A stretch of 64,000 nt of DNA from Stigmatella ashevillena (GTDB lineage: Bacteria > Myxococcota > Myxococcia > Myxococcales > Myxococcaceae), in NCBI RefSeq assembly GCF_028368975.1, contig NZ_JAQNDM010000002.1, forward strand, positions 4,334,425 to 4,398,424, read 5' to 3'. The notes below the pieces were generated by a model. That model saw only the letters and a list, made by a program, of their open reading frames with translations, ran no database searches and was not told the origin of the DNA. Both the position numbers and the translations under genes were made by a program. Of the stretch, positions 11,586 through 25,078 are shown piece by piece (position 1 is the stretch's first letter; each line of letters begins with the position of its first letter).

Positions 11586-12299
11586 ATGAACTTCCAAACG
11601 TGCAGCGCACTCCGCCAAGCCGTTGCCGTTGCCATTGTCGTCGCTGGGTGCGCCACCTCTCACGAGGTGCCTGAGACCTACGCTTGGGCCCCTGTGCGCC
11701 CACCCGCTGTGCCCGGCACGGGCCTCCCCACCCCCGGGCAGCCAGGGCAAGTTCGCCCCCAGGCCTTGCCACGGAGCCCGCACAAGCGCGTGTTGCCACT
11801 CACCCGGGAGCCGGGCCTTTGGGCCGGAGACGCTCCTCGGGCCTCGAAGGAACCGGAGGCGAACCCCACACCGGAGAAGTCCAGCGCGAACAGGAGGGAC
11901 CCGCCTGCCCCGGTGACGACGAAGCGCCGCCGCCCAGAGTGCGAGCCCACCCCAGTGCCACACGCGGGCGAAGATCCCCTGCATAACGAGTGCGCCGATA
12001 AGTTTCCGCCGAACCGCTACCCCGGCAAGGACGTGCTCGTTGGCGGCAAGCGCTTTGATGCGCTGCAAGTCGGCGTGCGCGTGCTGTGGGAGATCAAGAC
12101 CCATCGATTTGACACGTACAATGCCTTCATCCAGCGGATGACGATCCTGGAGGAAGTGCCGTTGCTACAGGAAGAGCGGGACATCGCGGAGGCCTGTGGA
12201 TACGACTTCATCGTTGGGGTGAGCACCCAAGCCCATAAAGATGCGTTACTGCAGCAGGATCCCAGGCTCTTTATTGTCGTCACAGGGTGCAAGCGATGA
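11586..12299 (+). CDS. lipoprotein with nuclease-like C-terminus (DUF6310), SitA-like toxin candidate
   Basis: 237 residues from the ATG at 11586, which follows a GGA-type ribosome site and gives a lipoprotein signal (VVAGC, Cys22). Residues 23-130 are a proline/basic disordered linker. The C-terminal about 100 residues carry FDALQVG (Asp158), LWEIKT (Glu169, Lys171) and ACGYDFIVGV (203-212). This spacing matches the D...ExK core of PD-(D/E)xK nucleases. I match this domain to DUF6310, a mainly myxobacterial family. The stop overlaps the next start (ATGA). A lipidated linker plus C-terminal nuclease, with an immunity candidate directly downstream, is the plan of Myxococcus SitA toxins delivered by outer-membrane exchange. 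Toxicity is inferred. Confidence 0.75.
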   Translation: MNFQTCSALRQAVAVAIVVAGCATSHEVPETYAWAPVRPPAVPGTGLPTPGQPGQVRPQALPRSPHKRVLPLTREPGLWAGDAPRASKEPEANPTPEKSSANRRDPPAPVTTKRRRPECEPTPVPHAGEDPLHNECADKFPPNRYPGKDVLVGGKRFDALQVGVRVLWEIKTHRFDTYNAFIQRMTILEEVPLLQEERDIAEACGYDFIVGVSTQAHKDALLQQDPRLFIVVTGCKR

Positions 12300-13054
12300 C
12301 CAACCACAGAACCCTTATCCTCATCGTCTACGCGCCTGCGCTTGTGGGCGACGACGGTCGCACGCTCGCAGTCGTCCACGGAATCGAACGGGCGCTTCCC
12401 GGTGTGCGCTTGGAGTGGGAACTGTCAAAGGCGGGGCGGCCCATCGCGTTGCTACAACGCGATGGGTGGCTCGCTGAGGCGAGCGCGCGCGGGAAGTTCC
12501 CGCTGCTGTGCAACGGCGACGAGAGTCACCCCGTGACGGTTACAGGATGGGGAACACCTGCGCGCCAAAACGCGGGCGGCCAGCCACAATTTGAGGTCCA
12601 TCTAGAGTTGCCGCTGGATGCAGCCACCATCGCGGCTGCGGCGGATCTGCTGGATGGCGTGGCAGAAGGCGCACGCGCGTTCTGGGGGCGTGCGACGCCG
12701 GACGGCGCTGCGCTGGACATTGCGTATCAGACAGCACCCACGCTGCAAGGGCCGCCGTCCCCACGCCGGGGGCTGCCTGCACTGAAGCTCTTCAAGGAGA
12801 TCCGCGCGCCAGAGATTCCTTATTACCTCGGGTGGCTGAACTACTGGTCCGATGCTGCCGCTCGAGCTATCGGCTTCCCGGATCCCTCACGTGACGCGGA
12901 CTTGCTCTCTCGGGCGCGACGCACCGAGCGGGGCGGGTGGATCGTTCGGCTTACAGATACGCCGCTCGATCTCGACAACCCCGCGCACTTGGAGGCGCTC
13001 TTGCGCGCTTATGAGCGCTTCCCGGAGATTGGCGGGCGCGTTCCCCTGCGATGA
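12296..13054 (+). CDS. DUF5953 protein, candidate immunity factor
   Basis: 252 residues, cytoplasmic, with no signal. It starts at the ATG inside the ATGA overlap with the nuclease-like lipoprotein, so translation is probably coupled. The pattern is LILIVYAPALVGDDGRTLAV, then LPGVRLEWEL, FPLLCNGDES, AEGARAFWG, LPALKLFKEIRAPEIPYYLG and WLNYWSDAAARAIGFPDP, ending GGWIVRLTDTPLDLDNP and LLRAYERFPEIGGR. I recognise this as the DUF5953 family that often follows DUF6310 genes in myxobacteria. The coupled position and cytoplasmic location fit an immunity protein blocking a nuclease. A second, frameshifted copy lies at 17629-18066. Confidence 0.75.
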   Translation: MTNHRTLILIVYAPALVGDDGRTLAVVHGIERALPGVRLEWELSKAGRPIALLQRDGWLAEASARGKFPLLCNGDESHPVTVTGWGTPARQNAGGQPQFEVHLELPLDAATIAAAADLLDGVAEGARAFWGRATPDGAALDIAYQTAPTLQGPPSPRRGLPALKLFKEIRAPEIPYYLGWLNYWSDAAARAIGFPDPSRDADLLSRARRTERGGWIVRLTDTPLDLDNPAHLEALLRAYERFPEIGGRVPLR

Positions 13055-13139: not shown

Positions 13140-13270
13140 CCGTCGATCGTCAGGTCTTCTGGCCCCACCTCGTCATCGGCCGCTACGGCTACTATTCCGG
13201 CTACTACCACGGTCACAGCTTCGAGGACTGTGCCCGCTTCTTGCTTCCGCAGCAGGGGGCAGACCGGCTG
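13140..13270 (+). pseudogene. catB 5' fragment, copy A
   Basis: This stretch repeats codons about 12-56 of the intact acetyltransferase gene at 18191. Positions 13189-13270 are identical to 18277-18358 (82 nt) and encode [20 protein letters not shown]. Similarity ends abruptly at 13270, so this copy has no catalytic core and cannot make the enzyme. Confidence 0.75.
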
Positions 13271-13590
13271 AGTTACCTGTGCGCGCGTCGGGATACTTGT
13301 CGGAGCCGTGCGGCTTGATGATGTTGGGGGGACCCACCGTCAGCAGGATCGCCAGTTCGCGCAGCGTGCGGGCATGCGTCCGTTTATCGTCGCGACTGGC
13401 TTCACGGTGCAGGGCGAATTTCCGATCCGACGGCTGATCCGCCCGTGGTTCTGTGACGGGTTCGATCAAGCGTGGGGATGCGTGGTGCGGGTGAAGCAGG
13501 CTATGAAATGACTCACACGCTGCCTGTATGGCCATTCACTGACCAGGCACTTGGGAAGCGGCACATTTCGAACCGGCACCACCCAGAGCA
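13271..13590. other. remnant DNA, possible transposon fragment
   Basis: About 320 nt with no intact gene. A minus-strand frame (up to 13535) reads LHREASRDDKRTHARTLREL then [20 protein letters not shown] in good coding style and may be a fragment of a mobile-element protein, but I cannot name it and it is fused to the antisense of the catB fragment. Treated as debris. Confidence 0.35.
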
Positions 13591-13626
13591 TTGTGTTCTT
13601 GGTTAATCAGCGGGACGGAGGCGAGC

Positions 13627-15045
13627 ATGAACAGAGCACTTCCATTGGCTCTCGTTGCACTCTTGAGCCTGGCACCGGTAGCTCAGGCGCAGATCGCGTT
13701 ACCCACCGACGTGGCGCCGAGTTGCACGGTTTCGCAGTGCGAGTTCGCGAGTTGGTTCGTTGGCGGCACGGTCACCCCAGGTGGCGTGGTGACTCCCGCG
13801 AACGGCATTGTCTTCCCACCCACGAGCAATACAGCCTGCGACTTCTACAAGTGGTCGTCGCATATGTTCTTGTGGCTCACGTCCCCGACTCAGAACACCC
13901 TCATTCTGGATTCCCCCATCGTCTTCGATGTGTCGGCGCCGAATTCCCAGGGACAACGCGCCTTCATGGCAAACACTGGCAACGGCGAGGCCAAGGGTAA
14001 TAAGTTCGCCCTGCGCGACGAGAAGCCCATCGGCGTCGACTCGACAGGCCAGGCCGGTGGCAACGCGGTGCTGATATCTCAGAAGGGTTCGCTGGTGTAC
14101 TACGGCGTTCATGCCAACGACGTCTTCGCGTGGTTCCTGACCGGGCAGAAAAGCGGCCAGATCCCGGTGATGACCTTCCCCATGAATGCACCGGAGATCG
14201 CCGCTGTGGCCCTCTACGCTGGCGCCAAGGGAAAGACCACTCTGCTGGACCTTCAGGCCATGACCATGGAGATGAAGTCTTCCTGGGTTGACGCCACCAC
14301 GGTCGACGCCACCCAGTTCATCACGATCATGGCCGAGGTTCCGAACTACGTGAAGACCTCCGCCACCCAGTGGACGCCGTATGGCACCATCCAGAAGAAG
14401 CTGGCGCTGGTAGGCCTGCACGTGGTCGGCACGGTCAACGGCCACCCCGAGATGGTCTGGGCCACCTTCGAGCACGTCTCCAACGCGCCGAACAACGGCT
14501 ACTACTACAACCCAACGACTGGTGGTGTGGCGAATGTGCCCTACAACTCGGCAGGAAACTGGACCTTCATGCAGAGCGGTGGGTCTCAGACCGGAGCGAA
14601 CACCGAGCTGATGAATGTGGACACAAACGGCAACATCGTCGCGAAGGGCGCGAATCCCATCGGGCCGAGTAACACCTTCCGCGTCAACCCGTGGGGCAGT
14701 GCTGGCAACACGAGCTCCTCGGCGGACAACAACACGGACATTCTGTCGCTCAATGTCGATGTCCTCTCCCAGCTGGCCAACCAGGACGTACGGCGCAACT
14801 ACGTGCTGGTCGGGGCCTTGTGGACTGCCGACGGCTCCATCCCGACGGACGGCTCGAGTACCGCCATGCGCGGCTCGCTCGAGCTGGCCAACACGACGAT
14901 GGAGACCTACCACCAGGATATGAACTGCTTCGCCTGTCACAAGGTCCCCAGCGGCAGCTCAAGCTTCGACGCAGGGGCCCTGAGCCACATCTACTCCCAA
15001 CTCCAGCCGCTCCAGCTCCAGAAGCCGCCTGTCCCTTCCAAATAA
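13627..15045 (+). CDS. secreted protein with one haem c motif
   Basis: 472 residues from the ATG at 13627, preceded by GGAG at a good distance, with a Sec signal peptide cut after VAQAQ or nearby. Near the N-terminus TACDFYKWSSHMFLWLTSPT is a conserved-looking block. The C-terminus carries CFACH (Cys434, Cys437, His438), the covalent haem-c attachment site, followed by a Ser-rich tail. Only one CXXCH is present in 472 residues, so it may be a monohaem periplasmic or secreted redox protein. I recall similar uncharacterised proteins in proteobacteria, with a HMFLWL segment and a C-terminal CXXCH. The substrate is unknown. Confidence 0.7.
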   Translation: MNRALPLALVALLSLAPVAQAQIALPTDVAPSCTVSQCEFASWFVGGTVTPGGVVTPANGIVFPPTSNTACDFYKWSSHMFLWLTSPTQNTLILDSPIVFDVSAPNSQGQRAFMANTGNGEAKGNKFALRDEKPIGVDSTGQAGGNAVLISQKGSLVYYGVHANDVFAWFLTGQKSGQIPVMTFPMNAPEIAAVALYAGAKGKTTLLDLQAMTMEMKSSWVDATTVDATQFITIMAEVPNYVKTSATQWTPYGTIQKKLALVGLHVVGTVNGHPEMVWATFEHVSNAPNNGYYYNPTTGGVANVPYNSAGNWTFMQSGGSQTGANTELMNVDTNGNIVAKGANPIGPSNTFRVNPWGSAGNTSSSADNNTDILSLNVDVLSQLANQDVRRNYVLVGALWTADGSIPTDGSSTAMRGSLELANTTMETYHQDMNCFACHKVPSGSSSFDAGALSHIYSQLQPLQLQKPPVPSK

Positions 15046-15063
15046 GTCGATAGCGTCGACCGG

Positions 15064-15088
15064 TATGCCGAGGCGCTCCTTCGGCATA
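15064..15088 (+). terminator. hairpin after the haem-motif gene
   Basis: An 8-bp inverted repeat (TATGCCGA / TCGGCATA) with a 9-nt loop starts 19 nt after the stop codon. There is no T-run. It lies between convergent genes. Confidence 0.4.
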
Positions 15089-15272
15089 TCGCCACGCGCG
15101 CCACCGGACCGCAGGCGAGCGAGGCAGCTCCCCGGTGCTGCGAGGTTTCAGACCCACTCCACCGATTCCGCGGCCGCCCGCCGTCACCTCGCAGCTTTTG
15201 CCATTTTCGCCCCCTGGAGCCTTTGCGCGCCCGGGCCGTGTTGGCCGACTTGGTGCCCTCGCGCCGAGTGCT

Positions 15273-17156
15273 CTAAGGCAGGCAGCCGACTCCACGGTCA
15301 TAGGTATGCTTCTGGCACGAGATACCGATGTCCGTCGTCCTTGAGGGACAGTCGGGGCTACACACGCAGCAACCCACGGCGTGGAAGTTCTGCTTGCACT
15401 TGGGGTAAACGATGGCCCCATTCTTCTCGCAATTACCGGCGCCGTGATCATTCTCGCAGCGTCTGTACATCCCGCTGTCGTTGAGCGAGTCGCCAAACTT
15501 CCACGGATAGCCCGCGCCGCGGCCGTAGGAGTTGGGCTTGAAACAGTAGAGCCCGTCATCGCGGAAGCCCGAGGGGCACCCGGGAATGCACATGGTCGCG
15601 TGACCGCTGTAACCCGGGTCACATCCCTTGTAGCAAAGGCCCGCTGAGTTCTCCAAGCCGTAGGGGCAACTGTGGCTGCCACCGAGATCAGGATCAGGGA
15701 GTTCCCACTCGTCACCTTGCCACCCTGCCTTCCTGGCCATCTTGTCGCCTGGCGCTCCAACGCAGTCTGCGCGGTTGCCAACCACCTGCCCTCCGCAGAA
15801 CCGGCCATCTCCATCGGCGGGCCACACCTTGTCCTGCCCATTCGACTGCCCATTCTGAGCCATGAGCTGCGCGAGGTTGGGCCCCTGCCCCGGCCCCGTC
15901 CCGATGTTGTACAAGTTGTATCCCGCTGAAAAGCTATTGAGGCAGACCTCGGCTGGTGTCCGCTTCGTACAGTCGAGCCATGAGAGGTAGACGGCGTGCT
16001 TGCCCAGCGAAGAGACGACCTCGCCCGGAGGATCGCACGAGTCCAGGATCCGCTCGTTGATTTCGCGCCGCTTGTAGTCTCCGCTGTGGGCGACGGTCTT
16101 CATGGCGTGAATGCGCCAGCCTTTGGAGCACGAGGCGTCTTGCTTCAACGTGTAATAGAAATACTCGGCATCCCCGGGGTGCGACTCCGCCCCGTGAGCG
16201 CCGCTGTGCCCCGCATGGCCACAGTCCTGGCGGAAGAGGAGCGCGAAGGAGGCGAGCACCCGGTCCGGGTTCCGAGGGTGAGGACCGACGTAGTAGAGCG
16301 CGACGCCGGTCTTCTGGTCCTTCGACGCAGGCGCCTGACAATTCTCTCCGGCCGCGAACCGCACATTGCGCGGGAAGAGGGCCTCGATCGTCGCCTGATC
16401 CGGCAGCGCAGGTGCCCCGCCTGAACCGTTGTACCGATAGATACCTCCGGTGCTGTTGACGCCCACGACCGTCCCATCATTGCCAACAGAGATGTTGCGC
16501 AGCGCTCCCGGCACCTGGGACCACGCAGAGCCGCTCCACTTGAAGATCTGGTCCGCCCCGTTGAGCGCCCAGACATTCCGCGCGTTGCCCACGGCGACGT
16601 AGGTCATCCCCGTGGGGATGCTCCAGGTCCACTTCGCACCATTCCACTTCAGGACGCGCAGCGAGTCGGGAGGGTTCGTCGCCCAAAGTTCTCCATCACC
16701 GCCGACGGAGACCTGGCTCACACAGCACCCCTTCTGATCCCAGGCCGAGCCGTTCCATCTGAAGAGCTTGCCGCCGTTGTCCAGCCCGTAGATCGTACTC
16801 GCGTTGGCGACCGTGACCTGCTTCATGCCGGTGGGCATGTTCCAGGTCCACTGAGAGCCGTTCCACCGAAGCACTCGCATCGAGTCGGGCGGGTTGGTGG
16901 CCCACAGCTCTCCATCGCTGCCGACGGAGATTGTACTGACGCAGCAGCCCTTCCTGTCCCAGCCCACTCCATTCCACTTGTACAGCACACCGCCGGTGTC
17001 GAGACCGTAAATGGTGCTGGCGCTGCTAACGGCTATCTGCTTCAGCGTCGTGCCTTGCGGCCCTGGCAACTGCGTCCATTGGGCGCTCGCCGCTCCCGGA
17101 ATAAGCGACAAGAATACGAGGGCCACGGTACACAATCCCAACACTGTTGGCTGCAT
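15273..17156 (-). CDS. secreted tectonin-repeat protein with cysteine-rich tail
   Basis: 627 residues from the ATG at 17156 (a GTG start 21 nt upstream is possible). A Sec signal ends GAASA. Residues about 25-260 are five to six tectonin/lectin-L6-type blades: IAVSSASTIYGLDTGGVLYK with W-N-G-x-x-W, and ISVGSDGELWATNPPDSMRV. Residues 270-480 are a distinct domain with LYYVGPHPRNPDRVLASFAL-like strands. The last about 130 residues have many cysteines (CPYGLENSAGLCYKGCDPGY, GLYCFKPNSYGRGAGYPW, CCVCSPDCP), a pattern I associate with eukaryotic microbial surface proteins. Tectonins bind sugars or lipopolysaccharide, so surface recognition is inferred. Confidence 0.75.
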   Translation of the reverse strand: MQPTVLGLCTVALVFLSLIPGAASAQWTQLPGPQGTTLKQIAVSSASTIYGLDTGGVLYKWNGVGWDRKGCCVSTISVGSDGELWATNPPDSMRVLRWNGSQWTWNMPTGMKQVTVANASTIYGLDNGGKLFRWNGSAWDQKGCCVSQVSVGGDGELWATNPPDSLRVLKWNGAKWTWSIPTGMTYVAVGNARNVWALNGADQIFKWSGSAWSQVPGALRNISVGNDGTVVGVNSTGGIYRYNGSGGAPALPDQATIEALFPRNVRFAAGENCQAPASKDQKTGVALYYVGPHPRNPDRVLASFALLFRQDCGHAGHSGAHGAESHPGDAEYFYYTLKQDASCSKGWRIHAMKTVAHSGDYKRREINERILDSCDPPGEVVSSLGKHAVYLSWLDCTKRTPAEVCLNSFSAGYNLYNIGTGPGQGPNLAQLMAQNGQSNGQDKVWPADGDGRFCGGQVVGNRADCVGAPGDKMARKAGWQGDEWELPDPDLGGSHSCPYGLENSAGLCYKGCDPGYSGHATMCIPGCPSGFRDDGLYCFKPNSYGRGAGYPWKFGDSLNDSGMYRRCENDHGAGNCEKNGAIVYPKCKQNFHAVGCCVCSPDCPSRTTDIGISCQKHTYDRGVGCLP

Positions 17157-17395
17157 TCTCACGATGGATCCCTTCACGCAGTACTGGCTCGTGCTCAGCG
17201 CTTCGCTTACACACCGTCAATTTCTAACACCCGTGCAGTCTCTTGCTAAGGACTTGGACAGTCGGTTCATGGGGCAGCGCTCTAGTATGTGCTGAGTAGC
17301 AAAAAGCTGGCTTGACTGGGTAACCGTCGAGCACTGATCCCTGAGGGATTGACACACTGTCCGAGGTGGCTCTTCAAACGGTAACCGTTAGGATG

Positions 17396-17600
17396 AGCCC
17401 ATTCGAATCCATACCAGCCCAGGTGGTCCAACTGCAGGTGCTGCTGGGGGCAGCGCTGACGAGGATACGGCAGTTGGAGCAAGAGAATGCTCAGTTGAGG
17501 GAGCGGTTGAGGCAGAACTCCACCAACTCCTCAAGGCCCCGTCGAGCGATGCTCCGGGCACAGCCCGGGCCAAAAAGAAGTGGACCGTCACCTGTCGTGA
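17396..17600 (+). pseudogene. IS66 transposase N-terminal fragment
   Basis: The frame from about 17395 reads LTRIRQLEQENAQLRERLRQ followed by NSTNSSRP, the coiled-coil and SSN-SSxPP signature at the N-terminus of IS66 TnpC transposases. The catalytic DDE region is absent; the frame runs directly into DUF5953 sequence. Confidence 0.65.
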
Positions 17601-17628
17601 CTATGTCCAAAAACTTCGCGGACACTCC

Positions 17629-18066
17629 ACTAGATGCGGCCAGCATCGCGGCGGCGGGGATGCTGGAAGGCGTGGCGGAAGGCGCACGCGCGTTCTGGGG
17701 CGCGTGTTGCCGAACGGAGTGGCGTCGGAGGTGGCGAAGCAGTTTCGCCACTCGATGGCTCAGCCGCATGTTCCGCCCCGGGGACTCCCAGCGCTCAACC
17801 TTCCCAAGCACCTCCGCTCGCCTGAGATCCCCCATTATCTCGGGTGGCTGAACTACTGGTCGGCAGCCACCGCACAGGCCATCGGGTTCCCGGACCCTGC
17901 CCGCAACGCAGAGATTCTCTCTCGGGCGCGGCGCACTGCGACGGGCGGGTGGGTCGTTCGGCTCACAGAGACGCCGCTCGATCTCGACAACCCCTTACAC
18001 CTGGAGGCGCTCTTGCGCGCCTACGAGCGCTTCCCGGAGATTGACGGGCGCGTGCCCCCGCGCTGA
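17629..18066 (+). pseudogene. frameshifted, truncated DUF5953 copy
   Basis: Similar to the C-terminal about 60 percent of the DUF5953 gene at 12296-13054: AEGARAFWG, then LPALNLPKHLRSPEIPHYLG, WLNYWSAATAQAIGFPDP, GGWVVRLTETPLDLDNP and LLRAYERFPEIDGR. The first half is gone, replaced by the IS66 fragment. At about 17697 this copy has four G where the intact copy has five, moving the reading frame; the remaining 119 codons are open from 17704. It could still be read as a short protein from the ATG at 17704, but no good ribosome site is seen. An orphan or decayed immunity gene is the likely origin. Confidence 0.75.
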
Positions 18067-18123
18067 GTCACCGGGCCAAAGTTGGGTCAGTGCTCGCCGT
18101 GCCCCGTCGTGACGTGAGGCGTG

Positions 18124-18172
18124 GTCGATTGTCAGGTCTCCTGGCTCCACCTCGTCGTCGGCCGCTCCAACC
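18124..18172 (+). pseudogene. catB 5' fragment, copy B
   Basis: About 48 nt (GTCGATTGTCAGGTCTCCTG and on to the GGCCGCTCC) repeat codons 12-27 of the catB gene that starts 19 nt downstream of its end. It resembles copy A at 13140 more than the intact gene (shared CAGGTCT and CCACCTCGTC). Confidence 0.6.
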
Positions 18173-18190
18173 CTCCTTCCGGCGAATATC

Positions 18191-18814
18191 ATGACCCATT
18201 TTTTCGAAAGTCCCTTCAAGGGCATCACGCTCGATCGTCAGGTCACCCATCCGAACATCGTGGTCGGCCGCTACAGCTACTATTCCGGCTACTACCACGG
18301 TCACAGCTTCGAGGACTGTGCCCGCTTCTTGCTTCCGCAGCAGGGGGCAGACCGGCTGCTCGTGGGCAGCTTCTGCTCCATCGGCTCGGGTGCAGCCTTC
18401 ATCATGGCGGGAAATCAGGGCCATCGGAACGAATGGGTCAGCACCTTTCCGTTCTTCTACATGTCCGAGGTGCCACATTTTGCCGGCGCCCGCGACGGCT
18501 ACCTGTCGGCAGGGGACACGGTCATTGACAATGATGTCTGGATCGGCTCGGAAGCCATCCTGATGCCCGGCATCCAGGTGGGCCACGGCGCCGTCATCGG
18601 CACCCGGGCGCTGGTGACGCGAAATGTCGAGCCCTACACCATCGTGGGCGGCAACCCGGCCAGGCCCATCCGCAAGCGCTTTTCCGAAGAGCAGATCTCC
18701 ATGCTGCTGGAGATGAACTGGTGGGATTGGCCCGAAGCGCAACTGCACGAAGCCATGCCCCTTCTGTGTGACGACGATGTCGCGGCGCTGCACCGCTGGT
18801 GGCAGGCTCGCTAG
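18191..18814 (+). CDS. catB: CatB/Vat-family O-acetyltransferase
   Basis: 207 residues, the normal length of the xenobiotic acetyltransferase (type B chloramphenicol acetyltransferase, Vat) family. These are trimeric left-handed beta-helix enzymes that move acetyl from acetyl-CoA to a hydroxyl. Visible signatures: [53 protein letters not shown] (catalytic His region), [36 protein letters not shown] and [19 protein letters not shown]. All core motifs are intact. The start is the ATG at 18191. Its 5' end has been copied at least twice nearby. Actual resistance activity is not shown. Confidence 0.9.
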
Positions 18815-18847
18815 GCAAAGACCAAGCGGGGCGGCTTGGCCGCTCCG

Positions 18848-19200
18848 CTACACGCTCTCTTGGAAGAGAGCCCCTGCTGTTTCACCGGCCAGTACATATG
18901 ATTGGTGACGATGTGCCTTTGGGGGCTTCGCGCTCTGGCCACGAATCCACTCGAAGGCCTCTTGGCTCAGCGACTCGGTCGGAATCATGATGCCGCCATT
19001 GTTCTGGAAGTGCCGACCGTCCCAGGCCAGGAACGCTCCCTCCGTATCCACGCAGATATCCTTCGGGCAGGACTGAGCGTCTCTTGCCTGCTCTTCGCAC
19101 TCGCCAGCGCGGAGGACTGGAACGCCATCGTGGTGTTCGGCCACGCCATCCAGAGTGGGCTTGCGTGCCAGATCCGCACGAGCCTTCCCTCCTCGTTTCC
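18848..19200 (-). pseudogene. truncated coding fragment of unknown family
   Basis: The minus frame ending at 18848 has good coding character for about 110 residues: LARKPTLDGVAEHHDGVPVL, CPKDICVDTEGAFLAWDGRH, FQNNGGIMIPTESLSQEAFE and WIRGQSAKPPKAHRHQSYVL. No start codon fits: the open frame simply continues antisense through the next gene. A TTG with GAGGAGG context at about 19202 is one base out of frame. I infer a gene with a lost or frameshifted 5' end. The family is not recognised. Confidence 0.4.
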
Positions 19201-19261
19201 AACGTCCGGATGCTATCCTTACGTTCAAACGCTTCCCTGAGTACCTCACGAAAGGCTGTCC

Positions 19262-20521
19262 GTGTCGCGCATCACCCCTGAACAGGTCAAGACCAAATTC
19301 AACAATGGTGACTGGACTCACGATCCCTGGTTCCTGGCCCCCCAGCATGAGACCCTCTTTGAGCGAGCCAACCTTCCCAGAAGTAAGATTCTCTCGGCCG
19401 TGGACGGACTGGCGCGAGTGTATCCTCCGGAGGTCTGTCGTGAGCTGCTCGTCGCGCCCCATCATGCGTGGCTCATTCACATCCTCTTCCAGCCATGCAT
19501 CCTCGCGGGCATCGTCCCTCGGCTGAGGCTGGGGCATGACGTGGCGACACTCGGGAGAAGTGTCGATGACGGAACGCTCAAGCGGCTCCACAACCGGAGC
19601 CACTATGATGCCGTGGCCTTCGAGCTTGCGGTATGGGCCAATCTCAAGCGGAACCTTTATGTCTTGGAGCGGGAGCCTCGCGGGCCTGGGAAGTCCAATC
19701 CCGACTTCGCGCTCTGCTTCGACCACCGTCGCTACATCCTGGAGCTGAAAGACCTGGACCTCGCGGAGCAGGAGTTTTTCGCGAGCGAGGTCAATGATCT
19801 GATGCAGCAGGTTGTTTCGAACCTGTGGCACGCGCACCGTCTCTTCAAGATCCGGTCCTCTCCTGAGTTTCAGAAGCGCTGCGGGTCCCCGGAGGGGCGA
19901 AAAGCCCTCGCCTCTCAGCTGCCTGAGATGGTGGTGGCCTTTGCGAAGAAAGCCGCCGAGGTAGAGCAGCTCGGCTTCCAGATCGGCCAGTATCCTGTCG
20001 ACTCCTACGGAATGATCGATGTGAAAGAGGACATGGAGCTTGAGCAGGGTGCCCTCGAATGGGACCTAGTTCCCCCCTTGACGGCCCGCAAGCGCGTCAT
20101 GCGAAGCATCAGCGTGATCAAGAAGGCGGTGGGCCAGCTACCGGCTTCAGGGCTCGGGGTCGGCCTCATCAACGTCGGCCGGTTCAGGAAAATTGAGCTC
20201 CTGCGCGAGGAGCTGATGATAGCTCAGCGTGAGCGTCCTTTGAAGTTCCAGAACTGCGCCTTCGTCGTCGTGCGTACCCTGGCGCGAAGCGAGAAGGGCA
20301 TTGAGAAGCCCTTCCTGGACGTCATCCCCATGTCACACCACCGGATGAGCCGCGCAGAAATGGACTTCGTGAAGGTGCTGGAGGCACCCAACAGCGGCGA
20401 GGAGCCTCAGATGCCACCCTCTTCCCGTCTGGTGCATCTCGGCCGAATTCAAGGGCCCGCCCAAGCGGGCTCCTCCATCCAATTCACGCTCACGGGTCCA
20501 GGCAGGATCATCCGTCCCTAA
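19262..20521 (+). CDS. PD-(D/E)xK nuclease-like protein
   Basis: 419 residues from a GTG start. No signal peptide or membrane segment. The centre carries SNPDFAL (Asp148), then YILELKD (Glu161, Lys163), the D...ExK pattern of restriction-endonuclease-fold nucleases. Upstream HNRSHYDAVAFELAVWANLK could provide the accessory helix, and the residues after the core (NDLMQQVVSNLWHAHRLFKI) look helical. It is followed by a beta-rich C-terminal third. It stands alone with no methylase or helicase partner, so it is not an obvious restriction system. Possible roles are DNA repair, phage defence or a mobile-element remnant. The function is unproven. Confidence 0.65.
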   Translation: MSRITPEQVKTKFNNGDWTHDPWFLAPQHETLFERANLPRSKILSAVDGLARVYPPEVCRELLVAPHHAWLIHILFQPCILAGIVPRLRLGHDVATLGRSVDDGTLKRLHNRSHYDAVAFELAVWANLKRNLYVLEREPRGPGKSNPDFALCFDHRRYILELKDLDLAEQEFFASEVNDLMQQVVSNLWHAHRLFKIRSSPEFQKRCGSPEGRKALASQLPEMVVAFAKKAAEVEQLGFQIGQYPVDSYGMIDVKEDMELEQGALEWDLVPPLTARKRVMRSISVIKKAVGQLPASGLGVGLINVGRFRKIELLREELMIAQRERPLKFQNCAFVVVRTLARSEKGIEKPFLDVIPMSHHRMSRAEMDFVKVLEAPNSGEEPQMPPSSRLVHLGRIQGPAQAGSSIQFTLTGPGRIIRP

Positions 20522-20842
20522 AAGCCACCTCTTTCAAGGTAATGGAGGAGGAAGGCAGCAGGCGGGGTGAGCGAGAGGGGAAGCGATGTCTTGAGAGGAC
20601 AGCAAGGGTCGTGCGCCGGGAACATCTTTGGAGAATCTGGCCATGGCGACAGGGTTTGACCGCCCTGACTTCCGGATGCCGGATGAGAATGCTGAGTCGA
20701 ACTGAAAGCTGCTCCGGACGCCTGTTCTGGCGGGAATCTTCCAGACTATCCACCACGTTCCGAGGGACTGCTTCGCTGCGCGCCTTGTTCAGTCTCTGGC
20801 AAAATGTTGACGCTTGAACACTTTCGCCTAGGAATGACTGGC
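20522..20842. other. intergenic region before the kelch gene
   Basis: About 320 nt without a convincing gene on either strand. Nothing recognisable was seen except an AGGA ribosome site at 20830-20833 for the next gene. Confidence 0.5.
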
Positions 20843-23800
20843 ATGAGAGTTCTTTGCGTCAAGCAACTGTTCATTGGGGTTGTGGCGTGGTGGGGGGTGG
20901 TGGGGTGTTCGGGCGAGCGACCTGAGGCTGAACCCAATCGTCACGAAGCCCTGGCATTGGCACGGGCCTATTTCCCCGAGCATTCCGAGTCACCCAAGAC
21001 CCCGCTTGCCCCGACCGGGTTGAGCCGTGAGGACCTGGCGCTGCGGGTCACGCTCCCGCTTTCGATGGGGGAGTCCATGGGGATTCACGCCCGGGGCCAC
21101 TTCTTTTCCGTGACGCAGGAGACGTCAATCGCAGCCCCCCGGATCGTGCGTGAAGGCGTGGTTTTTTATGGCCCTGGGCGATTTTGGACCCCGGTAGGGA
21201 ACTGGAGAGAGGACACGGCGGGCCGTTGGATGACGCACCGGGTGGAGGAATACGCAGTGCTTACGGAAGCTGTGGGCGTCTACCAGCAGCACCTCACGGT
21301 GGCGGTTCCGGAAGGAATTCCAGAGATACGAGACGCGGGCGAGTGGCTCGAATTTCTGGATGCATCCGGCGTCGCGGTGCTTCGCCTGCACGCCCTGGTG
21401 GCCCGTGATGCCCAGGGGCACTCCCGCGCGGGAGACATGCGCCTAGTCAATGTGGACCGCATCCCGAAGGCGGAAGATCCCCTGCCACGGTATGCCCTCG
21501 CGAGCAGAGCGCTCCGTGTGGAGATGTCGCTTCCCCTGGAGGGTTTGCGTGGGCCCATCGTGGTGGACCCGGGATGGTCCTCCACGGCGTCCCCAGCGGT
21601 CACGCGCTCCGAGCACACCGCGACGTTGTTGCTTACAGGAAAGGTGCTCGCGGCCGGTGGTTCCGGGGCAACGGCGGAACTCTATGATCCAGCCACTGGG
21701 ACCTGGATGGCCACGGGCGCCATGAGCATGGCACGCAATTCTCACACGGCCACGTTGCTACCCACGGGCAAGGTCTTGGTGGCCGGGGGAACCGCCGCGG
21801 GAACATCCTCCGCGGAGATGTATGACCCCGCCACCGGAAAGTGGAGCCAGGTGGATCCCCTGCCCGTTGCCCATGTTGGTCATACGGCGACGCTGCTGCT
21901 CTCGGGGAAGGTGTTGGTGGTGGGAAACACCGTTGGGCAGCTCTTTGATCCTGCGACAGGGAAATGGACACAGACAGGTTCAATGAGTGCCTCTCGTGCC
22001 GCGCATACCGCCACGTTACTGCCATCGGGCAAGGTTTTGGTGGCAGGGGGAACGCCCGGCCACGCCAGCGCTGAGATCTACGATCCAGAGAAGGACACGT
22101 GGACCACAACGGGCTCTCTGCTGGCAGGACGCCACTTTCACACAGCGACCTTGCTGCCATCGGGCAAGGTCCTGATCACGGGAGGACACCCTTACACCAA
22201 TGTTGCAGAACTCTACGACCCAGAGACGGGGAAATGGAGTGCGACCGCGCCCTCGCTCATCGTCAAAAATGCCCACTCCGCGACGCTCTTGCCCTCGGGC
22301 AAGGTCTTGGTGGCAGGTGGGCTCTACAATCCGTCATCGTCGACCAATATAATTCGTGATTCCATCGAAATTTATGACCCCTTGGCGGGGACATGGTCGA
22401 GTGGCCCTGCCATGTCGGTTGGGCGGTATTACCATACATCGACGCTGCTTCCTTCAGGACTTGTGTTCATCACAGGCTGGAGCGCGACGTCGGAGCTGTA
22501 CGATCCAGGAGCGGGTGGTTGGAGTGCCACAGGTGCTCTGCAATCTGCTCGGACGGGCTTCACCCTGACGGTGCTGCCCTCGGGGAATGTGCTGGCCACG
22601 GGAGGAAACACAGGGGCGGGCCCCTCTTCTTCGGCGGAGGAGTACGATGCGAAGACCCGGCTCTGGAAGGCGACACTGGGGATGAGCGTGCCGCGCGATG
22701 GGCATACCGCGACACTGCTTCCGGCAGGCAATGTCCTGGTGGTGGGAGGTTCCAGTGGGAACACCTTCCTCGACGATGCCGAACTGTACGAGCCGGTGAC
22801 GTCTGCCTGGATGCCCACGGGTCTGTTGACGAGAGCTCGCTCCTGGCACACCGCGACGCTGCTTTCCTCGGGGCAGGTGCTGGTGACCGGTGGAAAGAAC
22901 TCGGAGGGGGCCCTGTCCAGCGCGGAACTGTATGATCCACTGACAGGAACGTGGCGGAGCGCGGGGAGTCTAGCGCTGGCCCGGAGCCACCATACGGCGG
23001 TCCTGCTGACCTCTGGCAAGGTCCTGGTCGCGGGAGGACTGGGTTCAACAGGTACCCTGGCCAGTGCTGAACTCTATGATCCGATCTCGAACACGTGGAG
23101 AACCTTGCTCGCCATGGCGAGTCCCCGTGCGCAGCATCGCGCAGTGCGGTTGGCCTCTGGGAAGGTGTTGGTGGTGGGAGGCTTCCAGGACGCCACGGCG
23201 CTTCGGAGCGCGGAACTGTATGACCCGCAAACCCAGCTCTGGAGCCAGACGGCTTCACTGGAACATGCCCGAGCCCTTCACACGGCCACCTTGCTGCCCT
23301 CGGGCCGGGTGGTAGTGGCAGGCGGCAGCAATGGCGCGGGTGAGTTCTATTCCACAACGGAGGTGTATGATCCCGTCCTGGCGAGGTGGGCGCGCATGAG
23401 TCCCCTGGACATGACCCGGGCGGGCCACCAGTCCGTGGTGTTGCCCACGGCCCGTGTGCTCACGGTGGGCGGCTTCAACAGTGGGCTGCTCAGCTCTGCC
23501 CAGCTCTACGATGACACCGGTGCCAGCGATGCCTGGCGCCCTGTTCCCCACCTGCCCCAGGTGCTTCGTCCCGGAGCGACCACCCTTCTGTCGGGCGTGG
23601 GCTTCCAAGGCGTCTCCGCGGGTAGCAGCGGAAGCTCACGGGATTCGCCGGGGGCCATCCCCAGCGCGTCTTTGGTGAGCACCGAGGGCGGTTTGCTGAT
23701 TCCGCTGGTGAGCGAGACCTTCTCCCCGGTCTCGCTCAAGCTCCAGGTGCCCTCCGTGGCTGTGGGCAGCTACCTCCTCTTCGTGTCGTCCAACGGCGTG

Positions 23801-25078
23801 GCGGGAGGGCGGATGGTGCGCGTCACACAAGACAACCGGATGCCGGTGGCCCAGGCCGTGTCGGTGACCACGACGCGGCGCAAGCCTGCCGCGGTGGTGT
23901 TGCAGGCCACGGATTTGGACGGAGACATCCTGGAGTACGTGGTGGTGACACCGCCCGCGAAAGGAACGCTCTCTGGATCCGTGGACCGCCTCATCTACAC
24001 CCCCGGCGATACCGCCCTGGGCAATGACTCCTTCACCTACAAGGCCCATGATGGGGAGGCGGAATCCAATGTGGCCACCGTCTCTCTGGTGATCTCTAAC
24101 GCCTCGCCCAGCGGAGAGCCGCAGGCGGTTTATCTGCCCAAGGGGCAAACACGATCGGTGACCCTGAGGGCCACGGACCCCGATGGGGACGTGCTGGCGT
24201 ACACGGTGGTGACGCCGCCTCGGAATGGCACGCTGTCGGGCACCGCTCCGGGTCTTCTCTACACGCCCAGGCCGGGCTTCGTGGGAACGGACTCCTTCAC
24301 CTTCAAGGCGAGCGATGGGCTGACGGCTTCCCCCGTCATCCCCGTGTCGCTCTGGGTCTTGAATGCTGCCCCCGTGGCACAGGCCCTATCGATCCAGACT
24401 TCGGAGGGGACGCCCGTAGCGGTAACGCTGCGGGCCACGGATGCGGATGGAGACGCGCTGGCGTTCGGGGTGGTGACGCCGCCAGCCCATGGCTCGCTCT
24501 CGGGTTCACCGCCCGCACTGCTCTACACGCCCGAGCCCGGCTATACCGGACCCGATTCCTTCACCTATCAGGCAAGCGATGGGATGGGCACCTCTCGCGA
24601 GGCAGAGGTGGCCTTGGAGATGTCCGAGCAGGTGCCCAACCGGGCCCCTGCGATCCCTCGGATCTCTGGCGGTGAGGCACAGGCCGAAGCAGATGGCAGG
24701 GTGGTGCTTTCGTGGCAGGCATCCACAGATGCCGAGGGGGATGCGGTGCTCTACCGGCTCGAACTGCTCCGAGACGGTGCGGTCGTGTCACTGCTGAGCT
24801 CGGCGTCGCCCACGCTGAGTCTGCCGTCCACGTTGCCTGTGGGCGTCTATCAGTGGCGGGTGGAGGCCGTGGATGCCCATGGGCATGCCAGTGGCTATTC
24901 CGAGCCTCAGCGTCTGGTGATTACCCGCGAAGCCTTGGACTCTGGCGCGCCCGCTTCGGGGGGCTGCTCCACATCTGGAACGGGCGGTGGAGTGTTCTTG
25001 GCGCTCTGGGTCTTGCTGGCCTTGGCCCAGGTGGCCGTGGCGGTGACCCGGGGCTCGGCGGCCACAGCCGCGAAATAA
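20843..25078 (+). CDS. kelch-repeat lipoprotein with Ig-like and Fn3 domains
   Basis: 1,411 residues from the ATG at 20843, chosen because AGGA lies 9 nt upstream and the lipobox VVGC (Cys22) then has a proper signal. Residues about 80-245 are a non-repeat domain. Residues about 250-900 hold about twelve kelch-type units (HTATLLPSGKVLVAGG, AELYDPxTGxW), forming one or two propellers. Residues about 1015-1290 are three Ig-like tandem units (ATDxDGDxLxYxVVTPPxxG, LxYTPxPGxxGxDSFTYxAxDG). A fibronectin-III-like unit follows, then SGGCSTSGTGGG, a hydrophobic span and a short tail, which resembles myxobacterial MYXO-CTERM sorting tails. A large outer-surface protein is likely. Confidence 0.85.
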   Translation: MRVLCVKQLFIGVVAWWGVVGCSGERPEAEPNRHEALALARAYFPEHSESPKTPLAPTGLSREDLALRVTLPLSMGESMGIHARGHFFSVTQETSIAAPRIVREGVVFYGPGRFWTPVGNWREDTAGRWMTHRVEEYAVLTEAVGVYQQHLTVAVPEGIPEIRDAGEWLEFLDASGVAVLRLHALVARDAQGHSRAGDMRLVNVDRIPKAEDPLPRYALASRALRVEMSLPLEGLRGPIVVDPGWSSTASPAVTRSEHTATLLLTGKVLAAGGSGATAELYDPATGTWMATGAMSMARNSHTATLLPTGKVLVAGGTAAGTSSAEMYDPATGKWSQVDPLPVAHVGHTATLLLSGKVLVVGNTVGQLFDPATGKWTQTGSMSASRAAHTATLLPSGKVLVAGGTPGHASAEIYDPEKDTWTTTGSLLAGRHFHTATLLPSGKVLITGGHPYTNVAELYDPETGKWSATAPSLIVKNAHSATLLPSGKVLVAGGLYNPSSSTNIIRDSIEIYDPLAGTWSSGPAMSVGRYYHTSTLLPSGLVFITGWSATSELYDPGAGGWSATGALQSARTGFTLTVLPSGNVLATGGNTGAGPSSSAEEYDAKTRLWKATLGMSVPRDGHTATLLPAGNVLVVGGSSGNTFLDDAELYEPVTSAWMPTGLLTRARSWHTATLLSSGQVLVTGGKNSEGALSSAELYDPLTGTWRSAGSLALARSHHTAVLLTSGKVLVAGGLGSTGTLASAELYDPISNTWRTLLAMASPRAQHRAVRLASGKVLVVGGFQDATALRSAELYDPQTQLWSQTASLEHARALHTATLLPSGRVVVAGGSNGAGEFYSTTEVYDPVLARWARMSPLDMTRAGHQSVVLPTARVLTVGGFNSGLLSSAQLYDDTGASDAWRPVPHLPQVLRPGATTLLSGVGFQGVSAGSSGSSRDSPGAIPSASLVSTEGGLLIPLVSETFSPVSLKLQVPSVAVGSYLLFVSSNGVAGGRMVRVTQDNRMPVAQAVSVTTTRRKPAAVVLQATDLDGDILEYVVVTPPAKGTLSGSVDRLIYTPGDTALGNDSFTYKAHDGEAESNVATVSLVISNASPSGEPQAVYLPKGQTRSVTLRATDPDGDVLAYTVVTPPRNGTLSGTAPGLLYTPRPGFVGTDSFTFKASDGLTASPVIPVSLWVLNAAPVAQALSIQTSEGTPVAVTLRATDADGDALAFGVVTPPAHGSLSGSPPALLYTPEPGYTGPDSFTYQASDGMGTSREAEVALEMSEQVPNRAPAIPRISGGEAQAEADGRVVLSWQASTDAEGDAVLYRLELLRDGAVVSLLSSASPTLSLPSTLPVGVYQWRVEAVDAHGHASGYSEPQRLVITREALDSGAPASGGCSTSGTGGGVFLALWVLLALAQVAVAVTRGSAATAAK

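Follow-up and report, generated by a model that had tools for sequence, protein, structure and literature searches.

Two pairs of the Tox-REase-5/Imm52 kind, TseT-TsiT and PA3907-PA3908, have been solved as effector-immunity complexes, and the nuclease-immunity pairs of M. xanthus described in one published study are reportedly of this same kind. Zhang et al. (PMC3482391) list Imm52 as the immunity of Tox-REase-5. In Myxococcus, the SitBAI swarm-inhibition cassettes combine a lipoprotein toxin carrying a C-terminal nuclease (SitA) with the immunity gene that follows it (SitI), and are described as having many alleles and as lying often on mobile DNA (PMC5562445, PMC8546572). Leftover immunity genes are also on record: work on the T6SS loci of Vibrio cholerae (PMC5361080) describes replaced effectors whose old immunity gene stays 3' of the new pair and is considered retained. 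For the esaG and tipC genes (T7SS), blocks of homology in the immunity genes, ends included, are reported to allow recombination between paralogues (PMC9484751).

The window analyzed here, a stretch of 64,000 nucleotides (contig C2 4334425-4398424 of a 10.95-Mb genome, G000), holds an intact pair of genes of the families DUF6310 and DUF5953 and, 4570 nt downstream of it, a broken DUF5953 copy. Neither family was found by name in the literature searched. When Tox-REase-5 and Imm52 were sought by sequence, Pfam at E 0.01 returned DUF6310 and DUF5953 only, and profile searches for PDB relatives at E up to 1 gave weak matches for both partners, none convincing, including one of DUF5953 to 4rho_A (E 0.5) that later emerged as the top fold match. 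AlphaFold2 models (pLDDT 91.6 for DUF5953 and 91.8 for the DUF6310 domain) match both sides of the solved complexes. The DUF6310 model aligns with PA3907 (9oz0_B; Z 11.5, 3.5 A, 128 residues aligned) and TseT (7dym_A; Z 11.0, 2.9 A, 116 aligned), the next match having Z 7.1. The DUF5953 model aligns with TsiT (7dym_B) and PA3908 (9oz0_A) at Z 14.6 each (3.1 A, 205 aligned) and with the Imm52 entries 9owg and 6jdp at Z 12.7 and 12.6, the first unrelated entry standing at Z 5.5.

Toxin and immunity models alike thus have the fold of a Tox-REase-5/Imm52 pair, and they fit a nuclease-immunity pair of that type carried on a lipoprotein. The differences are that these sequence searches revealed no counterpart to this likeness, that the DUF6310 toxin resembles a lipoprotein rather than a T6SS effector, and that DUF5953 is a mosaic. 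We consider it very likely that DUF5953 is an immunity protein, as the initial annotation had it, on the grounds that the models of both partners match solved effector-immunity complexes and that no clean, full toxin stands beside a broken DUF5953 gene. A family pair that existed in name only gains a role, that of a Tox-REase-5/Imm52-like pair, from fold, co-variation and pattern of loss.

With SitA/SitI, the pair of the window shares the order of a lipoprotein toxin with a C-terminal nuclease followed by an immunity gene, as well as the wealth of alleles and the frequent location on mobile DNA, and N-terminal Cys motifs were read by eye in the toxins of the same genome. SitA families carry escort domains of about 375 aa (PMC8546572), whereas the toxin of the window measures only about 237 aa in all and is too short to hold one. 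The V. cholerae arrays likewise consist of leftover immunity sequence, but the copy in the window is a truncated stub and probably functionless; and the esaG and tipC paralogues sit in tandem at a single locus, unlike the copies of DUF5953, which are dispersed around the genome.

The broken DUF5953 copy and its surroundings

Table 1. Features of the window on either side of the DUF5953 stub (window positions).
Feature	Position	Strand	Evidence
Intact toxin gene, neighbouring pair	11586..12299	+	ORF list; PF19829 196.7 bits
Intact DUF5953 immunity gene, neighbouring pair	12296..13054	+	PF19378 399 bits
catB 5' fragment (model positions 14-57) behind intact pair	13143..13270	+	NF000490 56.8 bits; 91% to 18231-18358
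IS66 transposase gene, truncated 5' piece, ~65 codons	17390..17584	+	96% to copies in the same genome
IS630-family right end, 54 nt, TA target 17631-17632, abuts stub	17580..17633	+	87% to copies in the same genome
DUF5953 stub, start lost, last ~146 codons of immunity gene	17627..18066	+	Profile match and DNA alignment
G4 run, frame break	17697..17700	+	Homologue alignment; G5 in 6/6 comparable homologues
Residual open frame, 120 codons from GTG	17704..18066	+	ORF list, PF19378 match
catB remnant, 43 nt, behind stub	18124..18166	+	91% to 13142-13184
Intact catB (type B chloramphenicol O-acetyltransferase)	18191..18814	+	NF000490 382.5 bits, cut-off 350

The toxin of the intact pair (11586-13054) consists of a lipoprotein-type signal (lipobox VVAGC, read by eye), a Pro-rich linker and a C-terminal DUF6310 nuclease-like domain (11919-12290), and its stop codon is overlapped by 4 nt (ATGA) by the start of the immunity gene. 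The partial DUF5953 copy claimed downstream is real. Its 120-aa ORF matches DUF5953 (PF19378, Pfam gathering cut-off 25 bits) over positions 117-232 with 213.3 bits (E 5.6e-63), and ORF 17366-17851, in another frame, matches positions 84-118 with 26.9 bits, so that one gene is split over two frames; a second scan places the two pieces at positions 84-118 and 113-232 of 233. The homology, which spans 17627-18085 at the DNA level, is far beyond chance, and 17627-18066 represents the last ~58% of the gene. About the first 106 codons are gone, and a complete immunity domain in a single frame is not found, the gene lying in two frames without its 5' part. No toxin remnant was detected near the stub by tblastn in 13300-20000, nor any DUF6310 match there, and the copy stands without a cognate toxin beside it.

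The missing 5' half had been read as replaced by IS66 sequence. The DNA abutting the stub is instead the right end of an IS630-family element, and the IS66 piece lies to the left of that end, so that replacement by IS66 alone does not account for the missing 5' half. The IS66 piece is 96% identical to G000:C2:6824640-6824835 and 5950674-5950869, the longer copy at 6.82 Mb carrying PF03050. The 54-nt IS630 end is 87% alike to other copies in the genome; its motif recurs there in seven further copies with unrelated DNA after the TA in each, and every copy listed ends at TA, which was itself part of the search motif. An intact copy of the element (L098) encodes HTH_29 (28.9 bits) and DDE_3 (49.1 bits) by Pfam, and the marks of the IS630 family, an HTH and DDE_3 transposase and a TA target, are all present. 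In the alignment, TA stands at the position of the stub's edge in three of four close full-length relatives. A single open frame, 17366-17851, runs from the piece of IS66 through the end of IS630 into DUF5953 positions 84-118.

Nearest to the stub within its own genome is G000:C2:6636390-6636852, the immunity gene of a complete pair 2.28 Mb away, with 95% DNA identity; relatives in three other genomes (G006, G005 and G002) reach 94, 92 and 89%, and the immunity gene of the neighbouring pair 77%. The copy had been described as lying beside the toxin locus, and an intact pair does lie close upstream, but the stub does not descend from that pair: its origin as a duplicate of the neighbouring gene is rejected, given 77% there versus 95% at 6.636 Mb. 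The window stub and one other stub of this genome lie 4.6 and 9.9 kb downstream of intact pairs, and the others 33 kb to megabases away.

It is highly probable, in our view, that what remains here is the 3' end of a dead DUF5953 gene, once part of a DUF6310-DUF5953 cassette related to the 6.64-Mb pair. An IS630 element would have inserted at a TA within the immunity gene, an IS66-associated deletion would next have removed the toxin together with the immunity 5' half, and the remaining 3' part would then have drifted; the succession of these IS630 and IS66 events and of the loss of the G is our reconstruction. Against the reading as a dead stub speak the 120 retained codons, which are still open and score 213 bits, and the 13 differences from the 6.636-Mb copy in 363 nt (pN/pS 0.80), which are too few to prove relaxed constraint. 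When the state shared by most of three outgroup copies is taken as ancestral, 5 nonsynonymous and 2 synonymous changes fall on the lineage of the stub, a small sample; among them are a D-to-N and a G-to-D replacement at two sites that are invariant in 16/16 full-length DUF5953 copies of the genome. Within so small a sample, nothing in these substitutions suggests that the stub is conserved.

A catB 5' fragment lies behind both DUF5953 copies of the window, starting at nearly the same base and 91% alike. An intact catB follows the second copy; two of five other genus genomes searched (G001, G004) also have an intact catB, whose flanks are not in common with the window. A locus shared with these relatives was considered and rejected, since catB is all that the 16-kb stretches around it in G001 and G004 have in common with the window's first 40 kb. 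Next to this region, 20804-25078 encodes a protein of 1424 aa that combines Ig/cadherin-like domains with many Kelch repeats.

Direction of loss across 13 genomes

A single stub is ordinary; the population of stubs, with its polarity and shared 3' end, is the more interesting content. In 13 genomes (7 of the genus and 6 of the family), 180 DUF5953 and 138 DUF6310 matches were sorted into loci, a toxin being called full when a single unbroken match without a stop covered 113 or more of the 126 profile positions (the signal peptide lies outside this definition), and an immunity gene when a single match covered 211 or more of 233. Both genes are intact at 101 loci. The immunity gene is intact and the toxin broken or absent at 24, the immunity gene is broken and the toxin broken or absent at 42, and at only two loci does a broken immunity gene stand beside a full toxin domain. 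Neither of these is clean: G009:C686 runs off its contig (length 7719), and at 9.968 Mb of G005 the toxin has lost its N-terminal part and the immunity gene has an in-frame gap. Recounted by hand for loci with one gene damaged, there are 17 clear cases of intact immunity with a broken toxin versus no clean case of the reverse (p 1.5e-5), seven of the 24 having been dropped (four loci without a toxin match, G003:C337 at a contig start, G009:C216 as a possible contig-end case, and G014 with a divergent toxin). Candidate orphan immunity genes, intact beside broken DUF6310 toxins, are found in the genome of the window as well, outside the window itself (G000:C2:326255-326950, L005; 3928400-3929092, L002), and the claim that loci of this kind turn over is borne out.

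The relics of the immunity gene are one-sided too: 28 keep only the 3' part versus 2 that keep only the 5' part, with a further 6 keeping both ends and 5 middle pieces (three contig-end loci, G003:C107, G003:C169 and G009:C686, are excluded from this count). When related loci are collapsed by hand, counting stubs with common upstream flanks once and placing G013 1.858 Mb in the ankyrin group, 22 3'-only relics stand against 2 5'-only ones, and a hand count of pieces of at least 60 positions gives 13 against 2. In a control on intact proteins, 80/80 N-terminal and 80/80 C-terminal 30-residue pieces reach 25 bits, but with medians of 34.9 and 52.2, so that N-terminal pieces, once decayed, would escape detection a little more readily. 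One of the two 5'-only relics, at 8.919 Mb of the window's genome, has another relic 6 kb away. These two (L074:2286-8891, at 8.913 and 8.919 Mb) lie on one strand; in one a toxin 5' part sits beside an immunity 3' piece, and in the other a toxin 3' tip occurs with an immunity 5' part.

Loss in one direction is what would be expected if cells that lose immunity ahead of the toxin die, and a mutational bias is compatible with it too. Under lethality, the immunity gene could not be lost while the toxin is intact; deletions would come in on the side of the toxin or take out parts of both genes, and 3' stubs would result. Such one-sided decay would amount to a genome-only test for self-poisoning by a gene pair once immunity is lost. 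No paper on the polarity of such stubs was noticed in the literature listings, which is not proof of absence.

The polarity might alternatively be mutational and not selective, insertion sequences and deletions simply starting upstream of operons more often, an explanation that we regard as possible yet on the unlikely side. The edge of the window stub is indeed an IS end, and six relics are internal deletions or joins of toxin 5' to immunity 3' sequence, so deletion geometry matters; but a bias of this sort leaves the toxin-side damage unexplained, that is, the 17 to 0 count given above.

Flanks of the 3' stubs and cassette ends

The flanks of the 3' stubs have at least three origins. Six stubs join or follow the 5' part of a lipoprotein toxin whose middle is lost (G006:C13, G002:C2, G005 9.731 Mb, G013 1.858 Mb, and 8.913 and 4.951 Mb of the window's genome). 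Seven others lie directly behind another cassette, three of them behind an AHH nuclease lipoprotein with Imm11 and four behind an ankyrin-repeat protein, which is preceded by a lipoprotein in the two loci read. The third origin is represented by the IS-bounded stub of the window. Given the seven that directly follow other cassettes, many stubs have the appearance of scars left where a cassette was lost or replaced.

The AHH/Imm11 and the lipoprotein/ankyrin cassettes that end in the DUF5953 3' tip each occur in two genera (domains were assigned with Pfam at one AHH/Imm11 locus and, for the ankyrin proteins, at two loci). In both groups the homology between loci starts, where it is longest, slightly before the lipoprotein gene and stops near the end of the stub. 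The ankyrin-type toxin has its 5' leader and signal-peptide DNA in common with DUF6310 toxins, whereas the left end of the AHH type is not common to them, and among the DUF5953 copies of the window's genome identity falls just past the stop codon. AHH nuclease and Imm11 pairs ending in the tip were seen at L086:1537-3694, L141, L149, L276 and L277, and lipoprotein and ankyrin genes with the tip at L273:274-1947, L272, L274 and L275. The C-terminal domain of the ankyrin-cassette lipoprotein had no Pfam match in the one example scanned; this lipoprotein is possibly a new toxin with an immunity protein of the Imm-ank type.

From these ends we tentatively propose, while doubting it more than we credit it, that the 3' end of DUF5953 may serve in myxobacteria as a shared right-hand end at which unrelated lipoprotein cassettes (DUF6310/DUF5953, AHH/Imm11 and lipoprotein/ankyrin) are swapped, the 3' stubs being the scars; self-poisoning would forbid the opposite polarity, so that polarity alone would reveal the toxin. 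If unrelated cassettes do share ends, this would help to explain how kin-recognition loci change identity. The genome-wide set of stubs records the gain, swap and loss of toxin-immunity pairs in soil bacteria.

A more active role, in which conserved 3' stubs are kept or used as recombination arms or donors for the entry of cassettes and the exchange of C-terminal halves, seems to us unlikely. It would accommodate the three AHH/Imm11 and four lipoprotein/ankyrin loci that end in the tip in two genera each, the leader and signal-peptide DNA of the ankyrin type, the mosaic build of the immunity genes (rho 0.07 and 0.079, see below) and the drop in identity past the stop codon. The shared tips may, however, simply have been inherited from a single fused unit, a shared left end is missing from the AHH type, and the window stub has neither such a cassette in front of it nor a near-identical recipient (best 95%).

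Toxin tracking and the remaining open frame

The short G run had been noted in the initial annotation, as had the open frame downstream of it, and both hold: the run has four G, where five are found in all six aligned homologues that have the site (6.636 Mb of the same genome, G006:C25, G005 at 261 kb, G002:C3, G005 at 1124 kb and the neighbouring pair; two further rows of the alignment are without this position), and the frame from 17704 remains open for its 120 codons. The frame break is secondary damage. As the ~106 5' codons are missing whatever the G count, the gene would stay broken even if reads showed five G. An error of sequencing or assembly that conceals an in-frame IS66-IS630-DUF5953 fusion is very improbable: only one G in a homopolymer is at issue, and the frame 17366-17851 does span IS66, IS630 and DUF5953 84-118, but the first ~106 codons would be missing even so and the changes at invariant sites would stand.

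Mantel tests indicate which part of DUF5953 varies with its toxin. In 34 pairs, identity between toxin domains goes along with identity between the N-terminal segments of DUF5953, taken as far as the AFWG motif (rho 0.67, reached in 0/2000 permutations), not with that of the variable module behind AFWG (0.06) and little with that of the rest (0.11); seven of 41 pair loci were left out of this set, L002, L163, L164, L165 and L179 for a partial or divergent toxin and L069 and L070 as duplicates. The corresponding values are 0.89, 0.08 and 0.24 for the 18 genus pairs within the 34, and 0.69, 0.17 and 0.31 for 66 pairs from named genomes (14 of 80 loci, with a toxin partial or missing, were excluded), a set not fully independent of the 34 pairs, as genomes such as Hyalangium versicolor and Citreicoccus are common to both. 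These values place the tracking of the toxin in the N-terminal ~130 residues of the immunity protein, up to AFWG. Physical linkage as well as function may account for the tracking, and the C-terminal part, occurring with different toxins, is unlikely to set specificity.

Divided at the edge of the stub, the lost part of the gene correlates with the toxin at rho 0.667 (34 pairs), 0.89 (18 genus pairs) and 0.654 (66 pairs), versus 0.202, 0.304 and 0.353 for the retained part. The latter values were reached in 29/2000, 12/2000 and 0/500 permutations, so some co-variation of the retained part with the toxin persists. The stub has nevertheless lost the part that tracks the toxin and keeps one that hardly does, which argues against partial immunity. 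An orphan immunity gene that still protects, its 120-aa product from 17704 being made and blocking the DUF6310 toxin of neighbours, is not supported and very unlikely: the open frame with its 213-bit match would be in keeping with it, as would the protection ascribed to orphan immunity genes of other systems in PMC5361080 and PMC12546727, but the toxin-tracking part is lost (rho 0.65-0.89, versus 0.20-0.35 for the part kept), the domain, which in the model aligns with TsiT as one unit over residues 1-247, would be cut and without its first strands and helix, and the two invariant sites are changed.

Within DUF5953, divergence of the N-terminal part shows next to no correlation with that of the variable module (rho 0.07 in the 34 pairs and 0.079 in the 66), so that the gene is a mosaic. 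Mosaic DUF5953 genes were observed at L001-L016, L083-L085 and L161-L260, and the variable module falls by eye into about four sequence classes. Across genera, the DUF5953 protein of Corallococcus terminator (L181) is 92% identical to that of the intact copy in the window, a likeness that suggests recent horizontal transfer.
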